A DNA stretch of 32,736 bases from Chloroflexota bacterium (GTDB lineage Bacteria > Chloroflexota > Chloroflexia > Chloroflexales > Roseiflexaceae). This document shows, piece by piece, positions 10,304 through 29,678 of this stretch. The stretch's first letter is position 1, and every line of letters starts with the position of its first letter. A program made the position numbers and the translations under genes. The notes beneath the pieces were generated by a model. It was given only the letters and a program-made list of their open reading frames with translations, was not told where the DNA came from and made no database searches. The DNA is taken from assembly GCA_018969485.1 (NCBI GenBank), contig JAGWYG010000034.1, positions 1 to 32,736 on the forward strand, in the 5' to 3' direction.

Positions 10304-11236
10304 ATGGCCGATCCCGTCTTCCAGCACATCCCGGTGTTGCGTGACGACGTCATCAGCGCGCTGGCGCCGCAGCCAGGCGGCTGCTACATCGACGGCACGC
10401 TCGGCGGCGCCGGGCACGCCGCCGCACTGCTCGCCGCCGCACCCGGCGCGCGGCTGCTCGGCATCGACTGCGACCCCGCCGCGCTGGCGGCGGCGCGGGA
10501 GCGGCTGCACCCCTGGGGCGAGCGCGTCACGCTGATGCACGGCAACTTCCGTGATCTCGGGCGCATTGCCGCTGAGGCCGGCATCACGGCGGCCGACGGC
10601 ATCCTGCTCGATCTCGGCGTCTCATCGCATCAGCTCGATCACGGCGCGCGCGGGTTCTCGTTCATGCACGACGCACCGCTCGACATGCGGCTCGACCCGA
10701 CCGCCCCGCTCAGCGCCGCCGACCTGGTCGCCGATGTCGACGAGCGCCAGCTCGCCGACCTGATCTATCGCTATGGCGACGAACCGGCCTCGCGGCGGAT
10801 CGCGCGGTTCATCGTCGAGCAGCGTCGGCGTACGCCAATCCGCACCACCGGCGAGCTCGCCGCGCTGGTCGTCAGGGCGCTCGGCGGGCGGCGGGGCAAG
10901 ATCCATCCAGCCACGCGTACCTTTCAGGCCCTGCGCATCGCCGTCAACGACGAGCTCGCCAGCCTGACGGCCGTCCTGCCGCAGGCCATCGCGCTTCTGC
11001 GCCCCGGCGGGCGGCTCGCCATCATCGCATTCCACTCGCTCGAAGACCGGCTGGTGAAGCACGGGTTGCGCGACGCCGCCCACGACGGGCGCGTGCAGCT
11101 CATCACCAGGCGGCCGATCAGCGCCGACGACAGCGAGATTCGGCAGAACCCGCGCAGCCGCAGCGCGCACCTGCGCGTCGCGCAACGGCTCGATGCCGAC
11201 GCCGCCGGGCAGATCGACGAGGTCGTATGGCCGTAA
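10304..11236 (+). CDS. rsmH: 16S rRNA (cytosine1402-N4)-methyltransferase RsmH (MraW)
   Basis: The 310-residue enzyme N4-methylates C1402 of 16S rRNA in the ribosomal decoding site, using SAM. It shows [10 protein letters not shown] at the N-terminus, the SAM loop [14 protein letters not shown], the [15 protein letters not shown] signature followed by RGFSF and [23 protein letters not shown], and the C-terminal [12 protein letters not shown]. It opens the dcw cluster, where mraZ would usually precede it; no mraZ is present. The start at 10304 fits the family N-terminus and has GAGGGG close upstream. Its end overlaps ftsL by 10 bases, indicating translational coupling. Confidence 0.97.
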
Positions 11237-11607
11237 ATCTCCGCCGCCTGCTGCCACTGCAACAGATGCGTGCGAGCCGCCGGGCGCTCGCCAGCTATCT
11301 CACGCTCGATGGCGGCCGGACGCTGATCCTGGCGGCGATCGCATTCGCCCTCATGAGCCTGCTCACGCTCGCCCAGACCGGGCGTTCCGCGACGCTGGGG
11401 CAAGAGCTCGCCGATCTCGAAGTCCAGCGGGCGGTGCTGCTCCGCGAGCGCGGCGACCTGTCGCTCCAGCTCGCCGAAGCGCAGGCCTTCCGCGGCATCG
11501 CCGACCGCGCCGCGGCCGATGGCCTGCGCCCGGCCACGCGCGACCAACTGCGCTACATCGATCTGTCCGATGCCGATCCGACGCCGATTCCCCTGGTGAC
11601 GCCATGA
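11227..11607 (+). CDS. ftsL: FtsL-like septum formation initiator
   Basis: This 126-residue single-pass membrane protein sits at the conserved ftsL position between rsmH and ftsI. It has a short basic cytoplasmic N-terminus, one membrane helix at about 31-50 and an external coiled-coil stretch at about 55-90 ([19 protein letters not shown]), then a short tail. FtsL normally pairs with FtsB/DivIC and FtsQ and activates the FtsWI synthase. Sequence conservation in this family is low, so the call rests on topology, size and context. The start overlaps the rsmH stop by 10 bases and the stop overlaps ftsI as ATGA. Confidence 0.85.
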
Positions 11608-13490
11608 GGCATAGCCGCACCTACACCTACCGGCCGGCGCGCGCCGCGCCGCGCCGCGCCGACGGCGCCGTGCCATCGCTGCACATCAGCCGCATGCGCC
11701 TGCTCATCGTCCTCGTCGCCGTCGCTGCCATCATGCTGCGCGTCGGCATCCAGCTCGTCACGCTTACCGGCGAGACCGTCGAGCTCAATGGCACGTCGGT
11801 CAACCTGCGCCAGATGGCGCGCAACGAAGTCAACAGCCGGCAGGTCATCGAGCCGACCCGCGGCGTCATCCGCGACCGGGCCGGCAACACGCTCGCGATG
11901 AGCATCGAAGCACCATGGATCGTCGTCGACCCCACCACCATCAGCGATGCGCGTGCCGCCGACCTCGCCCGCGAGCTCGGTGGCGTCCTCGGCATGCCGG
12001 CAGCCGAACTCGAGGCGATGCTCACCGATCGCACCACGCGCTACCGGGTCATCCGCCGCTGGGTCGACCCCTCGACCGCCCGCGCCATCCTCGAGTCGCT
12101 GGCAGCCGGCGAGATGCGCTTCAGCGGGGTGTTCGTCGAATATCACCAGCGCCGTATCTACCCGGCCGGTCCGTCCGGCGCGGCATTGCTCGGCGCCGTC
12201 AATGACGAAGGCACGGGGGTTGCCGGCGTCGAGGCCTACTACGACGACATCCTGCGCGGTCGCGCCGGCATCCTCACCGCCGAGATCGACGCCCGCGCCC
12301 AGCCAATCGGCATCGGCCAGCAGGAGCTACGCGCCGCCAACGATGGCATCGATCTGGAATTGACCATCGACCCCTTCATCCAGAGCCTGGCCGAACGCGA
12401 GCTCGAGCAGGCCATCGCCATCCAGAGCGCCGACGGCGGCGTCGTCATCGTGCTCGATGTCCAGAGCGGCGCGATCCGGGCGATGGCCAGCCTGCCCTCA
12501 TTCGATCCGAACGAATACCAGCAGTATCCGGCGAGCGTCTACAACCTCAACCCCGCCACCAGCCAGGTCTACGAGCCGGGATCGACGTTCAAGGCGATCC
12601 TGGCTGCGATTGGCCTGCAGACCGGGCGTTTCAGCGCCGACACGCAGGTCGACGACACCGGCGAGATCGATCGCTACGGCTACCGCCTGGGCAACTGGAA
12701 CCGCATGGCCAATGGGCTGCTGACCCCCGGGCGGATGCTGTACTACTCCAGCAACGTCGCCGCGCTGCAATTTGCCGAGATGATCGGCACCGAATCGTTC
12801 TATGAGTACGTCGACCGGTTCGGCTTCGGCCGGCCGACCGGCGTCGATATCTCGGCCGAGGCGACCGGGATCGTGAGCAGCCCCGCCAGCGCCGGCTGGA
12901 GCCCGATCGTGCTGAGCACCAATGGCTACGGCCAGGGCATCGCGGTGACGCCGCTGCAGCTCGTGCGCGCCATGGCGACCATCGCCAACGATGGCGTCAT
13001 GATGCGGCCGTACCTGGTCGAGCGGCGCTGTCGCGGTGCCGAGTGCGTGAGCACCCAACCCCGCGCGATCAAGCAGGTGGTCGCCCCCGATGTCGCGCAG
13101 GCGGTGCAGCGCATGCTGGTCGAATCCGCCAATCACTACGCGCCGGTCGTCTGGAGCGAGATCACCGGACAGGGCGGTGATACCTGGCTGGTACCCGGCT
13201 ACGAGGTCGCCGCCAAGACTGGCACGTCGTCGATCCCGAACGGGCGCGGCGGATACGAGACCGATGGCGTGATCGGTTCGGTCGTGGGATTCGCGCCGGC
13301 CAAACAGGCACGCTATGCCATCCTGGTGAAGATTGATCGGCCACGCCGCGACCCGTGGGGCGTCGACACGGCCATCCCGGTGTTTCAGGCGATCGCCGAG
13401 CAATTGATGCGCTACGAGCATATTCCGCCAGACGCCGCGCTCGCCGGCCCCGGGCAGATCGCCGGCGAACTGGTGGCGGCGCATCCCTGA
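11604..13490 (+). CDS. ftsI: Peptidoglycan transpeptidase FtsI (class B penicillin-binding protein)
   Basis: This is a 628-residue bitopic class B PBP that crosslinks septal peptidoglycan outside the membrane. After a basic N-terminus there is one membrane helix (about 32-53), then the dimerisation domain with its EPTRGVIRDRAGNTLA motif (83-98). The transpeptidase domain carries the nucleophile motif STFK (Ser327, Lys330), SSN (382-384) and KTGTSS (538-543). No PASTA domains follow, unlike PBP2x of Gram-positive bacteria. The ATG at 11604 overlaps the ftsL stop as ATGA; the in-frame upstream extension would lie in ftsL and rsmH. It should form the septal synthase with the FtsW encoded downstream. 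Confidence 0.95.
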   Translation: MRHSRTYTYRPARAAPRRADGAVPSLHISRMRLLIVLVAVAAIMLRVGIQLVTLTGETVELNGTSVNLRQMARNEVNSRQVIEPTRGVIRDRAGNTLAMSIEAPWIVVDPTTISDARAADLARELGGVLGMPAAELEAMLTDRTTRYRVIRRWVDPSTARAILESLAAGEMRFSGVFVEYHQRRIYPAGPSGAALLGAVNDEGTGVAGVEAYYDDILRGRAGILTAEIDARAQPIGIGQQELRAANDGIDLELTIDPFIQSLAERELEQAIAIQSADGGVVIVLDVQSGAIRAMASLPSFDPNEYQQYPASVYNLNPATSQVYEPGSTFKAILAAIGLQTGRFSADTQVDDTGEIDRYGYRLGNWNRMANGLLTPGRMLYYSSNVAALQFAEMIGTESFYEYVDRFGFGRPTGVDISAEATGIVSSPASAGWSPIVLSTNGYGQGIAVTPLQLVRAMATIANDGVMMRPYLVERRCRGAECVSTQPRAIKQVVAPDVAQAVQRMLVESANHYAPVVWSEITGQGGDTWLVPGYEVAAKTGTSSIPNGRGGYETDGVIGSVVGFAPAKQARYAILVKIDRPRRDPWGVDTAIPVFQAIAEQLMRYEHIPPDAALAGPGQIAGELVAAHP

Positions 13491-16170: not shown

Positions 16171-17577
16171 ATGCGTGAGTTGCGTGGCATCAAGGCAGTT
16201 GTGCTGGGGCTGGGCGTCCATGGCGGCGGCGTGGGCGTGGCCCGTTTCCTCGCCGAACAGGGCGCCGACGTGCTGGTCACCGATCTGCGCCCGGCCGAGC
16301 AGTTGGCGGATTCGCTCGCGGCGCTGGCCGACCTGCCGATCCGCTTCGTGCTGGGCGAGCACCGCGCCGACGACATGGCCGCCGCCGCGCTGGTGGTGCG
16401 CAATCCGGCCGTACCCGACGCGTCGCCCTACATCCGGATCGCGCGCGCCGCCGGGGCCGCGATCGAGATGGAGATGACGCTGTTCTTTCGTCGGTGTCCG
16501 GCGCCGATCATCGGCATCACCGGCACCAAAGGCAAGACGACCACGACGATGCTGGTGGGCGCGATGCTGCAGCAGCACGATGCCGACACCGTCGTCGCCG
16601 GCAATCTGCGCGTCTCGGCGCTGGCCCAGCTCGGCCGCATCGGCCCGACGACGCCGGTGGTGCTCGAGCTGTCGTCATTCGTGCTCGAGGGGCTGGGGGC
16701 CGCCGGGCTCAGCCCGCGGCTGGCGCTGGTGACGAATATGTCACCGGATCACCTCGACCGGTATGCGGATTTCGCGGCGTATGTCGCGGCCAAGCTGGCG
16801 ATCGTGACGCACCAGCGGCCGGGCGATACGGCGATTCTCAACGCCGATGATGCGACCGCACCGCAGTTCGCTGCGGCGGCCGGTGGGGCAGTCGGCTGGT
16901 TCGGCATGCACGCCCCCGGCCCGGATCGTGGCCTGGCCGCCTGGTACGCCGACGGCTGGCTCGTCGTACGCGTCGATGGCCGGGACGAGCCGGTGTGTCC
17001 GGCGGCGGAACTGCGCCTGGCTGGCGCGCACAACCTGGCCAACCTGGCCGGCGCGGCGTTGCTGGCGCGCGTGCATGGCGTTCCATGCAGCACCATCCGC
17101 GCTGCCGTCCGGCAATTTCGTGGCGTGCCACACCGACAGCAACTCGTCGCCGAGATCGGCGGGGTGCGCTACATCAACGACACTGCGGCGACGGCGCCCG
17201 ATGCGGCGATCGCGGCACTCCACAGCTACACGGCGCCGATCGTGCTGATCGCCGGCGGCTCGGACAAGCGCCTGCCGCTGGCGCCGCTGGCGCGGGCCAT
17301 CGCCGCGCGCGCACGCCATGTCATCCTGCTGGCAGGCAACGCCACGCCACACCTCCAGCACGAACTGGCGGCCACGCCGGGGGCGCCGCCGATCAGCGGG
17401 CCATACGACGACATCGACCAGGCGGTCGCCGCGGCGGCGGCGCTCGCGCGCCCCGGCGAGCTAGTGCTGCTCTCGCCGGGGTGTGCCAGCTTCGGCATGT
17501 TCCGCAACGAGTTCCACCGCGGCGACGCATTCAGCGCCGCCGTCGCCCGACTCGCGGAGGGCGCCGATGCACGCTGA
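16171..17577 (+). CDS. murD: UDP-MurNAc-L-alanine:D-glutamate ligase MurD
   Basis: The 468-residue cytosolic ligase adds D-glutamate to UDP-MurNAc-L-Ala. It has the N-terminal Rossmann-like [16 protein letters not shown], the P-loop GTKGKTTT (118-125), [33 protein letters not shown], the HRQQLV and [12 protein letters not shown] blocks, and the C-terminal [10 protein letters not shown]. These are MurD-specific rather than MurC, MurE or MurF. The start is either ATG 16171 or the adjacent GTG 16168; GAGGG sits 6-9 bases upstream of these, so the choice is uncertain by one codon. The 3' end overlaps the rhomboid gene by 11 bases. Confidence 0.96.
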
Positions 17578-18334
17578 CCCGCTGCAACCAGCGCAGGATG
17601 CCGCCGAACCCGACGTGCCGCCGTCGGGCCCGCTGCCGCGGATCAGCGCCAGCCGAATCATCCTGGGCGTCATCATCGCCCTGTGGCTCGTCCCCGAGCT
17701 CGTCGGCTTCGTCACCGGCCAGCCGTACGCACAGCTCGCGCTGCTGCTCGGCGGCAAGTGGAATGAGCGTATCGCCGACGGTGAGTACTACCGGCTGCTG
17801 ACCGCCGCGCTGCTGCATACCTCGCTGCTCCACCTGGGCTTCAATGCCTATGCGCTCTACAGCCTCGGCCAGCACATCGAAGATCTGCTCGGCGCGCCGC
17901 GCTTCGTCGCGCTGTACGCCATCAGCGCGCTCGGCGGCAGCGTCGCCTCGTATCTGCTCAATCCGGCACCTGCCGTCGGCGCCTCCGGCGCGATCTTCGG
18001 CATCGTCGGCGCGCTGGCCATCCATGCCTGGCAGACGCGCGCGCTGTTCGGCGAGGGCGCGCGGCAATTGCTCGGCAGCATGCTGTTCATCGTCCTGATC
18101 AATCTCGGCCTCGGCATGACCACCCCATCGATCGACAACACCGGCCATCTGGGCGGTCTCGTCGCCGGCGCACTCGGCGGCCTCGCCCTGCTGCCACGCT
18201 TCCGCCTCGCGCCCGGCTTCCCCACGCCGCGGCTGGTGCGGCACAGCCTGCCCGGCGCATGGCTCGCCGCCGGACTGCTCGCCCTGGGCTTGCTCGGCAT
18301 GGTGCTGGTGCTGCCACCAGCGGTCGGGGGGTGA
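17567..18334 (+). CDS. Rhomboid family intramembrane serine protease
   Basis: The 255-residue protein has about seven hydrophobic segments and the rhomboid catalytic dyad: Ser140 in GASGAIFG and His194 in [11 protein letters not shown]. The [16 protein letters not shown] stretch (oxyanion His/Asn region, about 83-98) is also present. Rhomboids cleave membrane-anchored proteins within or next to the bilayer. The gene is locked into the dcw operon: its ATG overlaps the murD stop by 11 bases, with GGAGGG just upstream, and ftsW starts 3 bases after its stop. A rhomboid is not a usual dcw member. Its position suggests co-expression with the divisome and possibly a divisome substrate such as FtsL, FtsQ or FtsI; this is inference. 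Confidence 0.93.
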
Positions 18335-18337
18335 GCC

Positions 18338-19579
18338 ATGCTCCGTCAGCGCGGTGGCCGCCCCGACTACGCCCTGCTCACCGTCGTCGGCATCCTGATC
18401 CCCATCGGCCTGCCGATGGTCTACAGCGCCTCGCTCGTCGATGCGATCACGCTGCATGATAACCACCTGTATTATGTCTGGCGGCAGGTCGGCGCCGCGC
18501 TCGCCGGCATCATCGGCATGGCCGTGCTGATGCGCATCGACCTGCAGTGGCTGCGCAGCCAGTCGGCACGGTTCATGGTGCTCACCATCGTCCTGCTCAT
18601 CCTGCCGCTGGCGCTCCCCGAGAGCATGACCACGGTGAACGATGCGCGCAGCTGGATCCGCATCGGCGGCTTCAGCTTCCAGCCGTCCGAGCTAGCCAAA
18701 TTCGCACTCATCCTGTTCGTCGCCGACTGGCTATCGCGGCGTGGCGCACGCGTCAGCGATTTCCTCTATGGCCTGCTTCCGTTCACCGGCATCATGGCCG
18801 TCGTCTGCGGGCTGGTGCTGCTCGGCCGCGATCTCGGCACGACGATCGTCATCGCGGTGATCGGGGCCGTCATGTATTTTGTCGCCGGCGCGAGCATCGT
18901 ACACATCGCCGGGGCGGTCGTGCTCGCCGCCGGTGCGTTCTGGTCGATGATCGCGCTCGCGCCGCACCGCATGGCGCGCATCCAGGCGTGGTACGATATT
19001 CTGGCGCACAGCAATGGCGCCGGATATCAGCCGCTGCATGCCCTCTACGCGCTCGCCAGCGGTGGCTGGTTCGGCGTCGGCATCGGCCAATCGCGGCAGA
19101 AGTTCGCGTGGTTGCCACAAGCGCACACCGATGCCATCTTTGCGATCATCGGCGAAGAGCTCGGCGTCATCGGCACCATCGGCGTGCTGGTGCTGTTCGG
19201 CATCTTCGCCATGCGTGGCCTGCGCATCGCCGTCCGCGCCCCCGACTCGTTCAGTACGCTCGTAGCTGTCGGGCTGACGGCATGGATCGTGTTCCAGGCG
19301 CTCATCAACATTGCCGTCGTCACGTCGTTGATCCCATTCACCGGTCTGACGCTTCCATTCCTGAGCTACGGCGGAACATCGTTGATGGTCTCGTTGTTCG
19401 CGGTCGGGATGTTGCTCAACATCTCGCGACATACCGCAGGAACTGCGGTGGAGCCTGCAGATGACAGCGAAGCACGATCCCACGCCATCCCGTACACGCA
19501 ACGTCTGGCTCTGTGGTGGCGGAACCGGTGGGCACGTCTACCCGGCGCTAGCCGTCGCCGACGCGCTCCGTACCGATGA
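18338..19579 (+). CDS. ftsW: Septal peptidoglycan polymerase FtsW (SEDS family)
   Basis: The 413-residue SEDS glycosyltransferase polymerises lipid II at the septum together with FtsI. About ten membrane helices are visible. Conserved blocks are ARSWIRIGGFSFQPSELAK (about 103-121), GRDLGTTIV, PQAHTDAIFAIIGEELG with the key Asp of the SEDS family, and LPFLSYGGTSLM. GGGGGG lies shortly before the ATG. The last 39 or so residues are Arg-rich and lie in the region that overlaps murG in another frame, a 119-base overlap, so the tail is probably shaped by the murG coding sequence rather than by FtsW function. Confidence 0.95.
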   Translation: MLRQRGGRPDYALLTVVGILIPIGLPMVYSASLVDAITLHDNHLYYVWRQVGAALAGIIGMAVLMRIDLQWLRSQSARFMVLTIVLLILPLALPESMTTVNDARSWIRIGGFSFQPSELAKFALILFVADWLSRRGARVSDFLYGLLPFTGIMAVVCGLVLLGRDLGTTIVIAVIGAVMYFVAGASIVHIAGAVVLAAGAFWSMIALAPHRMARIQAWYDILAHSNGAGYQPLHALYALASGGWFGVGIGQSRQKFAWLPQAHTDAIFAIIGEELGVIGTIGVLVLFGIFAMRGLRIAVRAPDSFSTLVAVGLTAWIVFQALINIAVVTSLIPFTGLTLPFLSYGGTSLMVSLFAVGMLLNISRHTAGTAVEPADDSEARSHAIPYTQRLALWWRNRWARLPGASRRRRAPYR

Positions 19580-20654
19580 TGAGCCGGCAATGGCGCTGAC
19601 GTACATCGGCAGCGTCGGCGGCATGGAGGCCGAACTGGTCGCGCGCGAGAGCGATCTGCCGTTCCGCAGTGTGCATGCGGCGCCGCTACGCGGCCAGACG
19701 CGCGGCGCGCTGTTCGGCGGGCTGATGACGATGCTGCGGGGCATCGCCGACGCCTGGCGGCTGATCGGGCGCGAGCGGCCCGACGCCATCCTGGGCACGG
19801 GTGGGTACGTGTGCGTGCCGGTGATGGTCGCCGCACGGCTGCGCGGCGTGCGCACCGCCCTGTACCTGCCCGACGTCGTCCCGGGGATGGCGGTACGGCT
19901 ACTGTCACGCATCGTCACGATCACGGCCTGCACCAGCACCGCCTCGCAGCCATACCTGTGGGGCGTCAGGCTGCGGGTCACCGGGTATCCCGTGCGGCGC
20001 TCCTTCGGCGCCAGCGACAAGCTCGCCGCGCGCGAGGCGTGCGGCCTGCGCCACGACTGGCCGGTCGTCTTCGTCTACGGCGGCAGCCGCGGCGCGCGCA
20101 GCATCAATCATGCCATCGCCGAGATTCTCGAACCGGTGCTCGAACTGGCGCAGGTGATCCACCTGTGCGGCCGCGAGGGCGACGAGGCGATGCTGCAGCG
20201 CGCCGCCGCCGAGTTGCCCGAATGGCTGCGCGAGCGCTACCGGCTGTACCCGTATCTGCATGCCGGCCGCGACGGCGCCACACCGGCGCTGTTCGACGCC
20301 TTCGCCTCGGCCGACCTGGTCATCTCGCGCAGCGGCGCGTCGGTGCTGGGCGAGTTGCCTGCCGCCGGCGTGCCGGCGATCCTGATCCCGTATCCGCATG
20401 TGCACCAGGACGAGAATGCCGATGCACTCGTGGCGGCGGGTGCGGCGCTGAAGATCGCCGACCACGAGCTCGCCACCACCGGCGATGCGCTCGAGGGGCC
20501 GCTCTATCGGGCGCTGTACCGATTGATCACCGACTGGATGGTGCGTGGCACGATGGAGGCGCGCATGGCCGAACAGCATCGGCCGGATGCGGCAGCCACG
20601 ATCGCCCGCATCGTTCGGGGCCTGGCACTCCGGGAGCCGATCCATGCGCTTTGA
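19461..20654 (+). CDS. murG: UDP-GlcNAc:lipid I N-acetylglucosaminyltransferase MurG
   Basis: The 397-residue peripheral membrane GT-B enzyme converts lipid I to lipid II. The N-terminal glycine loop CGGGTGGHVYPALAVADAL contains the family His (His25). The second domain has VYGGSRGARSIN, the SRSGASVLGELPAAGVPAILIPYP donor-site block and HQDENADAL. The usual HEQN acceptor-side motif is replaced by LPDV at 136-139, followed by the normal PG-AVRLLSR. The ATG at 19461 has GGAG 7 bases upstream and lies 119 bases inside ftsW; no later start codon keeps the glycine loop, so the overlap is real unless ftsW ends early. It overlaps the next gene by 11 bases. Confidence 0.94.
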   Translation: MTAKHDPTPSRTRNVWLCGGGTGGHVYPALAVADALRTDDEPAMALTYIGSVGGMEAELVARESDLPFRSVHAAPLRGQTRGALFGGLMTMLRGIADAWRLIGRERPDAILGTGGYVCVPVMVAARLRGVRTALYLPDVVPGMAVRLLSRIVTITACTSTASQPYLWGVRLRVTGYPVRRSFGASDKLAAREACGLRHDWPVVFVYGGSRGARSINHAIAEILEPVLELAQVIHLCGREGDEAMLQRAAAELPEWLRERYRLYPYLHAGRDGATPALFDAFASADLVISRSGASVLGELPAAGVPAILIPYPHVHQDENADALVAAGAALKIADHELATTGDALEGPLYRALYRLITDWMVRGTMEARMAEQHRPDAAATIARIVRGLALREPIHAL

Positions 20655-21285
20655 GGGCGATCAGCTGATCATCGACCTCTCGGGGCCGCTGGTGGCGCTG
20701 CTGCTGTACGGTGGGTTCACCCTGTACGGCTGGCTGCGCGGATTTCGGCACATCGTCACGCTGGCCGGTGCGCTGACGCTGGGGTACCTGCTCACCGTCC
20801 GTGGCGATGGCGCGGTGGTCGGTCTGGTGAACGGCGCCTGGGCTGGCACGGTGCGCGTCGGCAGCATGCTGGGCGACGGCGTCGCCGAGATGCTGCCGGC
20901 CACACCGCTGATCGCCGCGAGCCTCGAGGCGCCGCTGCTGCTGCGCGTGCTGGTGTTCGGCATCGTGCTCGCCGTCGGCGGCAGCTACGTCGCGCCATGG
21001 AGCGACGGCGGCCTGCAGGGCATCGGCGGCGCGGCCCAGTTGCGCATGCTCGGCGCCGGCACCGGATTCTACTGTGCGCTGCTGCTGATCAACGCGCTGG
21101 CCGTCTTCTGGGGCGCTGCGCGCCCCGTCCTCGCTTCCGACGGGCCGCTGGCGACGGCGCTCGACAGCCTGCGGCCCAACCCCGACGTGGCGGGGGTCTT
21201 CATCATGACGTTCGTCGGCGTCGTGGTCTTCGTCATCATCACCCGGTTCAATCGGCTCGTCGTGCCCGACGACGAGCGTGACTGA
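20644..21285 (+). CDS. Uncharacterised membrane protein, weakly CvpA-like
   Basis: The 213-residue product has about five hydrophobic segments. The first part (LSGPLVALLLYGGFTLYGWLRGF then a long hydrophobic run) resembles the start of CvpA-family proteins, where a helix is followed by an RGF motif; that likeness is weak and I do not claim the function. The C-terminus has a last helix and a charged tail. It overlaps the murG stop by 11 bases and murC follows at 21305, so it belongs to the same transcript. GGGAG lies upstream of the ATG. Its location between murG and murC suggests a role at the septum or in precursor traffic. Confidence 0.75.
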   Translation: MRFEGDQLIIDLSGPLVALLLYGGFTLYGWLRGFRHIVTLAGALTLGYLLTVRGDGAVVGLVNGAWAGTVRVGSMLGDGVAEMLPATPLIAASLEAPLLLRVLVFGIVLAVGGSYVAPWSDGGLQGIGGAAQLRMLGAGTGFYCALLLINALAVFWGAARPVLASDGPLATALDSLRPNPDVAGVFIMTFVGVVVFVIITRFNRLVVPDDERD

Positions 21286-24675: not shown

Positions 24676-25494
24676 ATGCAGCGCCGCGACCTGGGCAGGA
24701 GCCTCAGCCAGACACGTACCACCACGCGGCGCCGGCCGCGGCGCGCGGCTGCCCGGCCGGGGGCGTGGCGCGTGCTCGGCGAGGCCCTCGCGACCGGTCG
24801 GCTCGCCAGCGGGCTGGTGCTCGTCGCAGCGCTCGCCGTGGCAGCCCATGTCGCCACCGCGCCGCAGTTCCGCATCCGTGATATTCGCGTGACCGGAGTA
24901 CAGATGCTCGACGACGCCGACGTCATCGCCCTGAGCGGCGCCGCCGAACGGATGATCTGGACCGTCGACACCGCGCGCATCGCATCGATGCTGGCGGCCA
25001 ATCATTATGTCGAAAGCGTGAGCGTCCATGCCTACCTGCCCGATCGGCTCGACATCGCGATCACCGAGCGCCGACCCGACATCCGGTGGGTCGCCGGTGG
25101 CAGCGCATATCTCGTCGATGCCGCCGGGCTGGTGCTCGGCCGGGCTGCGGCGCCCGACGACAGCGCCGGCATCCTTGCCATCCAGGATCTGAGCGGCCAG
25201 CCAGTCGAACCGGGCACGCGGATCGACATCGCCGTCCTGAGTCTCTGTCGCGAACTGGCGCTGCGGCTGAGCGCCGAGAGCGGCACCACCATCGCCACGC
25301 TGACGTGGCACCCGATCGACGGGGTCATCGTGACGACCCCGGCCAACCAGCGCATCGCCATCGGCGACGGCAGTCGGCTCGATGAGAAGATCGCGGTCAT
25401 TCGCTGGCTCCACGACGAGCAGATCGCCTACACCTCGCTTGATGTCCGGCCGGAGGCACCGTTCTACCGCACGGATGGGCAGGTACGGCCATGA
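24676..25494 (+). CDS. ftsQ: Cell division protein FtsQ
   Basis: The 272-residue bitopic divisome protein has a strongly basic N-terminal tail (about 1-35), one membrane helix (about 44-60) and an external POTRA domain starting at FRIRDIRVTGVQML, with the typical YLPDRLDIAITERRPDI end. The beta domain follows. FtsQ links FtsL/FtsB to the septal synthase. The gene starts 5 bases after the ddl stop. Position ahead of ftsA and ftsZ matches the classical dcw order. Confidence 0.92.
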   Translation: MQRRDLGRSLSQTRTTTRRRPRRAAARPGAWRVLGEALATGRLASGLVLVAALAVAAHVATAPQFRIRDIRVTGVQMLDDADVIALSGAAERMIWTVDTARIASMLAANHYVESVSVHAYLPDRLDIAITERRPDIRWVAGGSAYLVDAAGLVLGRAAAPDDSAGILAIQDLSGQPVEPGTRIDIAVLSLCRELALRLSAESGTTIATLTWHPIDGVIVTTPANQRIAIGDGSRLDEKIAVIRWLHDEQIAYTSLDVRPEAPFYRTDGQVRP

Positions 25495-28745: not shown

Positions 28746-29453
28746 TCAGCCGGCGCCGTCGGCGGCGATGCAGCGACAGACGACGTCGAGGCGCGCAAAG
28801 CACGCCTCGATCAGCGGCAGCGCCGTGTGCGCCGCAAGCAGCGCGCCACGGTCGTCGGGCCGGGCCAGTCGCCGCAGCAGCGCGGCATGCGCTGCCGGCA
28901 AGTCGACCGCAGGAATGACGAGCCCGTCAGATCGCCACACGAGGGACAACTGCGCCGGACGGGCGCAGGCATAGCCGAGCAGGTGCGCCTCATCGGCGCC
29001 GCAGGCCGCGAGACGCGCCACCCCCACGCGGGCATACGCTGGCGCGCCGCGCGTGCGCCTCAGCCGCAACGGCATGCCGGGAACAACCTCCAGCGATGCC
29101 ACGTCGCACGCCACCCAACCGAGCCGCTCCTGGTCGAACCGCGCGACCCGCTCGCCCGGCGCCGGGTGATACCACCACGCCGGGCCGGCGGCTGCAGGCG
29201 CGGGCGGCGCTGCCAGTGCCGCGATCAGGTCGCTCAGCCAGGCGACGGTGATGCCCCGCTGGCGCAGCCGCGCTGCCAGCCCCGCGCGGCGCGCCGTGTG
29301 CAGCGTGATGAACATGCCGTGGCGCTCACCTTCGCCGGCAAGGACTGGCCACGCCCGTCGATCACGCACGAGACAGCAGTCCGGTGTGACTTCCTCGACG
29401 CCGGGTGGTGCGCCGGCGCGCGCCGATGATTGGGTACGCTTCGATGACGACAC
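28746..29453 (-). CDS. Unrecognised 235-residue protein
   Basis: I do not recognise this protein. It is soluble-looking, with no clear signal peptide or membrane helix, rich in Ala, Arg and Leu, and contains a MFITLHTARRAGLAARLRQRGITVAWLSDL stretch that reads as two alpha helices, then WWYHPAPGERVARF and a C-terminal Cys-containing helix. It is supported as a gene by a well-placed AGGAGG six bases before the GTG at 29453 and by a TATGAT -10 box at 29473-29478. An ATG upstream (29663) would cross the promoter and an inverted repeat. The opposite frame is an Arg/Gln-rich shadow. It is divergent from rfbB and its position after ftsZ may be coincidental. Confidence 0.65.
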   Translation of the reverse strand: MSSSKRTQSSARAGAPPGVEEVTPDCCLVRDRRAWPVLAGEGERHGMFITLHTARRAGLAARLRQRGITVAWLSDLIAALAAPPAPAAAGPAWWYHPAPGERVARFDQERLGWVACDVASLEVVPGMPLRLRRTRGAPAYARVGVARLAACGADEAHLLGYACARPAQLSLVWRSDGLVIPAVDLPAAHAALLRRLARPDDRGALLAAHTALPLIEACFARLDVVCRCIAADGAG

Positions 29454-29472
29454 GCTAGCCCTCCTGATGCAC

Positions 29473-29478
29473 ATCATA
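29473..29478 (-). promoter_or_regulatory. Candidate -10 box for the unrecognised minus-strand gene
   Basis: On the minus strand TATGAT lies about 20 bases before the GTG at 29453, giving a very short leader that contains AGGAGG. No -35 box is evident. Confidence 0.45.
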
Positions 29479-29560
29479 CCCGAGGTTGGCGCAATGCCCG
29501 GCGCAGCACCACGCCGGTCCGCTGCGATGGCCCGGCACAGCCCGCGCACGCCAAACCGCA

Positions 29561-29614
29561 GCGCACAGCCGCGGCGCCGGGCGTGCGCGCGGCCGCAGCC
29601 CCGCGGCTGTGCGC
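29561..29614. repeat. 14-bp perfect inverted repeat in the rfbB upstream region
   Basis: GCGCACAGCCGCGG (29561-29574) is exactly complementary to CCGCGGCTGTGCGC (29601-29614), with a 26-base GC-rich centre. It lies between the two divergent promoters (29473-29478 and 29679-29687). It could act as a regulator site, a transcriptional insulator or a remnant repeat. Confidence 0.75.
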
Positions 29615-29678
29615 CGCCGTTGCCAATGAGCCAGCCACGTGGCGCGGCACCGGGCAGCGCCACACGAGCGGAAAACCT

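Follow-up and report, generated by a model that had tools for sequence, protein, structure and literature searches.

In Bacillus subtilis the divisome protein FtsL has been proposed as a target of intramembrane proteolysis by the protease RasP. RasP is a site-2 metalloprotease with type II substrates and not a rhomboid, and type II proteins of the divisome, such as FtsL, are the usual targets of site-2 proteases.

The rhomboid GlpG of E. coli, H. influenzae and Shigella has a six-helix core with a Ser-His dyad and the motifs HxxxN and GxSG. YqgP (GluP) of B. subtilis is an active bacterial rhomboid that is discussed for both cell division and FtsH-linked quality control of membrane proteins. 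Its large N-terminal domain binds divalent cations, and its cut in the polytopic protein MgtE falls in a loop adjoining a TM helix (PMC7231995). As cited in PMC7231995 and PMC8899591, a division defect was reported for the gluP (yqgP) mutant, according to the former without a rescue experiment. N-out single-pass proteins are the favoured substrates of rhomboids, and GlpG removes orphan subunits (PMC7232013). A stable linkage of a rhomboid to a peptidoglycan gene is described for the mycobacteria, in which Rv1337 adjoins murI across the lineage (PMC2989971, PMC6656915). For the dcw cluster itself, a study of its evolution (PMC8871954) concluded that the cluster has probably gained no genes since it arose; rhomboids are nowhere mentioned in that study.

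The window, i.e., the whole stretch of 32,736 nucleotides that was analysed, comprises a dcw cluster from rsmH to ftsZ, and in between murD and ftsW it carries a complete rhomboid reading frame. The features used below are:

11227-11607, plus strand: ftsL-like gene, 126 amino acids, one TM helix, predicted N-in by charge; assigned by its position after rsmH and a TM/charge scan, no Pfam match
11604-13490, plus strand: ftsI, class B PBP, one N-terminal TM helix, predicted N-in by charge; PF00905 and PF03717
16168-17577, plus strand: murD, whose 3' end overlaps the rhomboid by 11 nt; NCBIfam TIGR01087, 376.7 bits (cut-off 211.95)
17567-18334, plus strand: rhomboid intramembrane serine protease, 255 amino acids, 6+1 TM helices, short cytoplasmic N-terminus; PF01694, AlphaFold2 model, GlpG and iRhom matches in the PDB
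17831-17845, plus strand: His89 to Asn93, HxxxN of TM2, invariant in 54 homologues; oxyanion-hole residues of GlpG by homology
17984-17986, plus strand: codon of the predicted catalytic Ser140, GASG motif, invariant in 54 homologues
18146-18148, plus strand: codon of the predicted catalytic His194, invariant in 54 homologues
18338-19579, plus strand: ftsW, separated from the rhomboid stop by 3 nt; NCBIfam TIGR02614, 370.7 bits (cut-off 337.5)
20653-21285, plus strand: CvpA-like multi-TM membrane protein of ~210 amino acids between murG and murC; homologues at the same place, sub-threshold PF02674 in relatives
24676-25494, plus strand: ftsQ, one TM helix, predicted N-in by charge; PF08478 (POTRA_1)

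The product of 17567-18334 is apparently a catalytically competent rhomboid of the GlpG fold that belongs to a Chloroflexota subfamily. Pfam Rhomboid (PF01694) matches with an E-value of 1.7e-36 and 126 bits, above the curated cut-off of 22.6. The Ser140/His194 dyad, which the first-pass annotation had read from the sequence, is confirmed by the alignment of 54 homologues, in which both residues are invariant together with His84, His89 and Asn93. In the AlphaFold2 model (mean pLDDT 92.5, pTM 0.87) the predicted helices fit the six core TM segments of the rhomboid fold and a seventh at residues 231-248. The 38 matches in the PDB at E <= 0.001 are, without exception, structures of GlpG or the rhomboid-like iRhom, and the GlpG structures align with probability 1.00 and a TM-score of about 0.8. 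However, identity to GlpG is only ~20%, the N-terminal domain of GlpG is absent, and the extra C-terminal TM7 and the dcw context set the protein apart. Unlike YqgP, its N-terminus has only ~27 residues. An identity as GlpG equivalog (TIGR04239, 57.9 bits, cut-off 250) or as rhombosortase (TIGR03902, 47.9 bits, cut-off 84) was rejected. No further rhomboid turned up in the source genome in a profile search. The structure model, the invariance count and the phylum search are based on alignment A2, which consists solely of loci and was translated directly from them. The class survey took its profile, and the tree its choice of rows, from a second alignment, A1, in which one row has one wrong N-terminal residue.

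The reading frames around the rhomboid are nearly continuous. The rhomboid ATG falls within the murD frame (murD stop 17575-17577), giving the overlap of 11 nt, and its own stop at 18332-18334 is followed after 3 nt by the ftsW ATG at 18338, exactly as first annotated. The consensus scan detected no promoter-like and no terminator-like site at the gene junctions. Over the related loci the spacing from murD to the rhomboid has a median of -1 nt (39 loci), with many ATGA overlaps, and that from the rhomboid to ftsW a median of 44 nt (48 loci), as expected for translational coupling. The rhomboid is probably translated in step with the genes for envelope synthesis and division, and would be co-transcribed with murD and ftsW. 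The CvpA-like gene is a second non-canonical member of this cluster and is found order-wide at the same place. Behind ftsZ, a frame of 305 amino acids on the opposite strand (28746-29663, minus strand) has no Pfam match even at E 5.

In 60 relatives a rhomboid match lies directly 3' of murD almost throughout. A class-wide survey of 131 genomes compared where murD, ftsW and the rhomboid lie, the last of these located with profile A1. The order of the window, presumably the Chloroflexales in the GTDB sense, is represented by the families f1-f4 with 76 genomes, of which 64 show murD-rhomboid-ftsW, 5 murD-rhomboid and 2 rhomboid-ftsW at contig ends. Four genomes stop at contig breaks and were left out of the decidable ones. 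The rhomboid thus adjoins murD and/or ftsW in 71 of 76 genomes, or in 71 of the 72 decidable ones, and by this conservation of position across a clade it is a member of the dcw cluster in this order. G055 is the sole decidable genome of the order in which murD is followed by ftsW without the rhomboid. Carriers include Candidatus Oscillochloris fontis strain Chuk17 (L072); other members of the order in the set are a Chloroflexales MAG (L071) and Herpetosiphonaceae MAGs (L074, L095). Outside the order, murD is joined directly to ftsW in all 34 decidable genomes of the class (f5-f10, f12). Family f13 lies outside the scored set; its ftsW is below threshold or absent in most genomes, and at L154 (G129) murD is directly followed by murC, with no ftsW found in the cluster. 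The first-pass annotation had suggested a survey of gene order in Chloroflexota; the one made here places the rhomboid between murD and ftsW across one order, the Chloroflexales, and not in Chloroflexota generally. An artefact of one genome only, the outcome that the first-pass annotation had named as a refutation, is ruled out by the order-wide synteny.

In the tree all dcw rhomboids group in a single clade (ultrafast bootstrap 96, SH-aLRT 90; SH-aLRT 90 with another sample, too), and the second rhomboid that many genomes of the order carry is distant from this clade. Synteny and tree together make it close to certain that the order's common ancestor gained the rhomboid between murD and ftsW in a single event, and that the gene has stayed there since. 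In a comparison of the source genome with the congener G001, dN/dS was 0.27 for the rhomboid, 0.24 for ftsW, 0.24 for murF and 0.12 for murD; the mraY row, read in a wrong frame, was left out. In this one pair the rhomboid is under purifying selection about as strong as that on FtsW, and the frame is thus not a chance frame. In the small-genome genus g8 the rhomboid in the dcw place is the only one in most genomes (G023 is undecidable).

In G055 no rhomboid match was obtained anywhere in the genome. Its murD frame runs into HPAALLLAIAAMALLLPPAS, which matches the C-terminus of the rhomboid of a congener, ATALLLVIAAMALLLQPAS. This remnant of the last TM helix, fused in frame to MurD, indicates that G055 lost the rhomboid by secondary deletion, subject to assembly error, and an ancestral absence was rejected on the same grounds. 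The dcw operon of G055 is otherwise intact, with ftsW and the CvpA-like gene kept. The fused frame (L150, 11632-13167) proceeds from MurD through a PDGHPA repeat to the rhomboid remnant and, if real, would give a membrane-tethered MurD.

Beyond the order, the subfamily occurs in other settings. In Anaerolineae gmk is immediately followed by a rhomboid of the same subfamily at more than 20 loci, in four of which Pfam confirmed the guanylate kinase. The pair resembles the window in that the rhomboid follows a housekeeping gene directly and often abuts it, although the partner is guanylate kinase and not a dcw gene. The pair appears to be conserved in several Anaerolineae families, often with abutting or overlapping genes (L073, L077, L082, L090, L092, L094, L103, L105, L111, L131, L170-L182, L188). 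Within the class, the neighbour of the rhomboid in families f5 and f7 is selA, a histidine kinase or a response-regulator/GGDEF gene, and none of 36 loci scanned outside the order has dcw genes within about 4-5 kb of the rhomboid. Given these other contexts, the job of the protein is independent of the dcw setting, and riding in housekeeping operons is a habit of the subfamily. In family f27 two rhomboids of the subfamily stand in tandem at L185 (G231:C37:64088-66008), and also in G306, G294, G238 and G152. Rhomboids adjoin wall or division genes in other lineages as well. The mycobacterial Rv1337 belongs to another lineage and is linked to murI and cysM, not to dcw. In Desulfosporosinus and Ca. 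Dichloromethanomonas (L083, L086, L093, L144) the rhomboid is followed by an FtsI-like PBP, with a PASTA domain in L086, and in an acI actinobacterium (L146, 489-3513) cyclophilin (ppiA), a rhomboid and the division gene crgA lie within 3 kb. The PASTA-PBP and crgA neighbourhoods are single-lineage sightings.

What the protease cuts is constrained by topology. In the charge scan the single N-terminal TM helix of FtsL, of FtsI and of FtsQ is flanked by more positive charge on its N side, and all three are accordingly predicted to be N-in, type II proteins. Since rhomboids prefer N-out segments (PMC7232013), this orientation is the strongest single argument against these three as substrates; it would leave FtsW, MraY and the CvpA-like protein possible. 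Activation of TatA, as known for AarA, was considered as well and set aside: the simplest start of the best TatA in the source genome, MPSLGIPELL, gives no clear N-terminal extension, a weak argument, as an upstream ATG exists.

We favour, with moderate confidence, growth-coupled quality control or processing of membrane proteins, a housekeeping task, as the role of the rhomboid. In such a scheme the protease would cleave membrane proteins that are misassembled or in surplus, either in N-out TM segments or in outer loops, and leave the fragments for FtsH to finish, by analogy with GlpG/Rhom7 of Shigella or YqgP of B. subtilis. A full-length FtsH is encoded in the source genome. The position in the dcw cluster would set the dose of the rhomboid to growth without marking FtsL, FtsQ or FtsI as substrates. 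A general role is preferred to a division role because of the Anaerolineae gmk pairs, the contexts in f5-f7, the loss in G055 and the known functions of bacterial rhomboids (PMC7232013, PMC7231995). Several points weigh against it. The order-wide stable linkage in a highly conserved cluster exceeds the needs of a merely convenient promoter, small genomes retain the dcw rhomboid while lacking a second one, and the division defect reported for B. subtilis gluP speaks for a closer tie to division. The neighbourhoods with murI, PASTA-PBP and crgA argue against this role and against a merely passive one. If the gene had landed between murD and ftsW by chance, had been locked in by the overlapping and coupled frames and served unrelated substrates such as surface proteins, then the two or more lasting operon homes of the subfamily (dcw, gmk), the viability of the G055 genome after the loss and the lack of any candidate substrate nearby, TatA of the source genome with no clear extension of the AarA-substrate type included, would be explained. 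Purifying selection as strong as on ftsW, the retention of this gene as the only rhomboid in most g8 genomes and a single loss among 72 decidable genomes make such a neutral passenger unlikely.

More specific tasks in the envelope were also considered. The first-pass annotation had named the co-encoded FtsL, FtsQ and FtsI as plausible substrates; on this view their cleavage would time or limit septation in the manner proposed for RasP and FtsL. The order-wide linkage inside dcw with nearly continuous genes and the gluP defect, as cited in PMC7231995 and PMC8899591, would suit this proposal, but the N-in topology, the relatives housed with gmk in Anaerolineae and the G055 operon, intact apart from the missing rhomboid, all speak against it. 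In addition, searches of the open-access literature for a rhomboid with the dcw cluster, or for rhomboid protease, FtsW and bacterial cell division, returned no paper. We therefore regard dedicated control of the divisome through these proteins as very improbable. Alternatively, the rhomboid might cut outer loops or N-out helices of unassembled FtsW, MraY and CvpA-like protein, with FtsH removing the rest, as for YqgP and MgtE. These proteins are polytopic and co-encoded, FtsH is present, and both the loop cut of YqgP in a polytopic protein (PMC7231995) and the orphan removal by GlpG (PMC7232013) provide precedents. However, the dcw rhomboid is limited to one order, in contrast to the near-universal FtsW and MraY, and in G055 both ftsW and the CvpA-like gene persist although the rhomboid is gone, so that an orphan-subunit control specific to the envelope also appears doubtful. 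That the rhomboid is integral to the septal peptidoglycan machinery of this one order, acting on the assembly of the FtsW/FtsI complex or on an N-out division protein, is a rather improbable reading; if true, division would be controlled by intramembrane proteolysis from inside the dcw operon.

Going by the open-access literature searched, the placement of a rhomboid between murD and ftsW has apparently not been described before. The order-wide gain of a protease at this position is a counter-example to the view that the dcw cluster has gained no genes, and murD-rhomboid-ftsW provides a clean marker for the order. With a named carrier strain, Ca. Oscillochloris fontis Chuk17, and a natural loss in G055, a participation of rhomboids in envelope synthesis or division, as raised by the report on gluP of B. 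subtilis, becomes testable.
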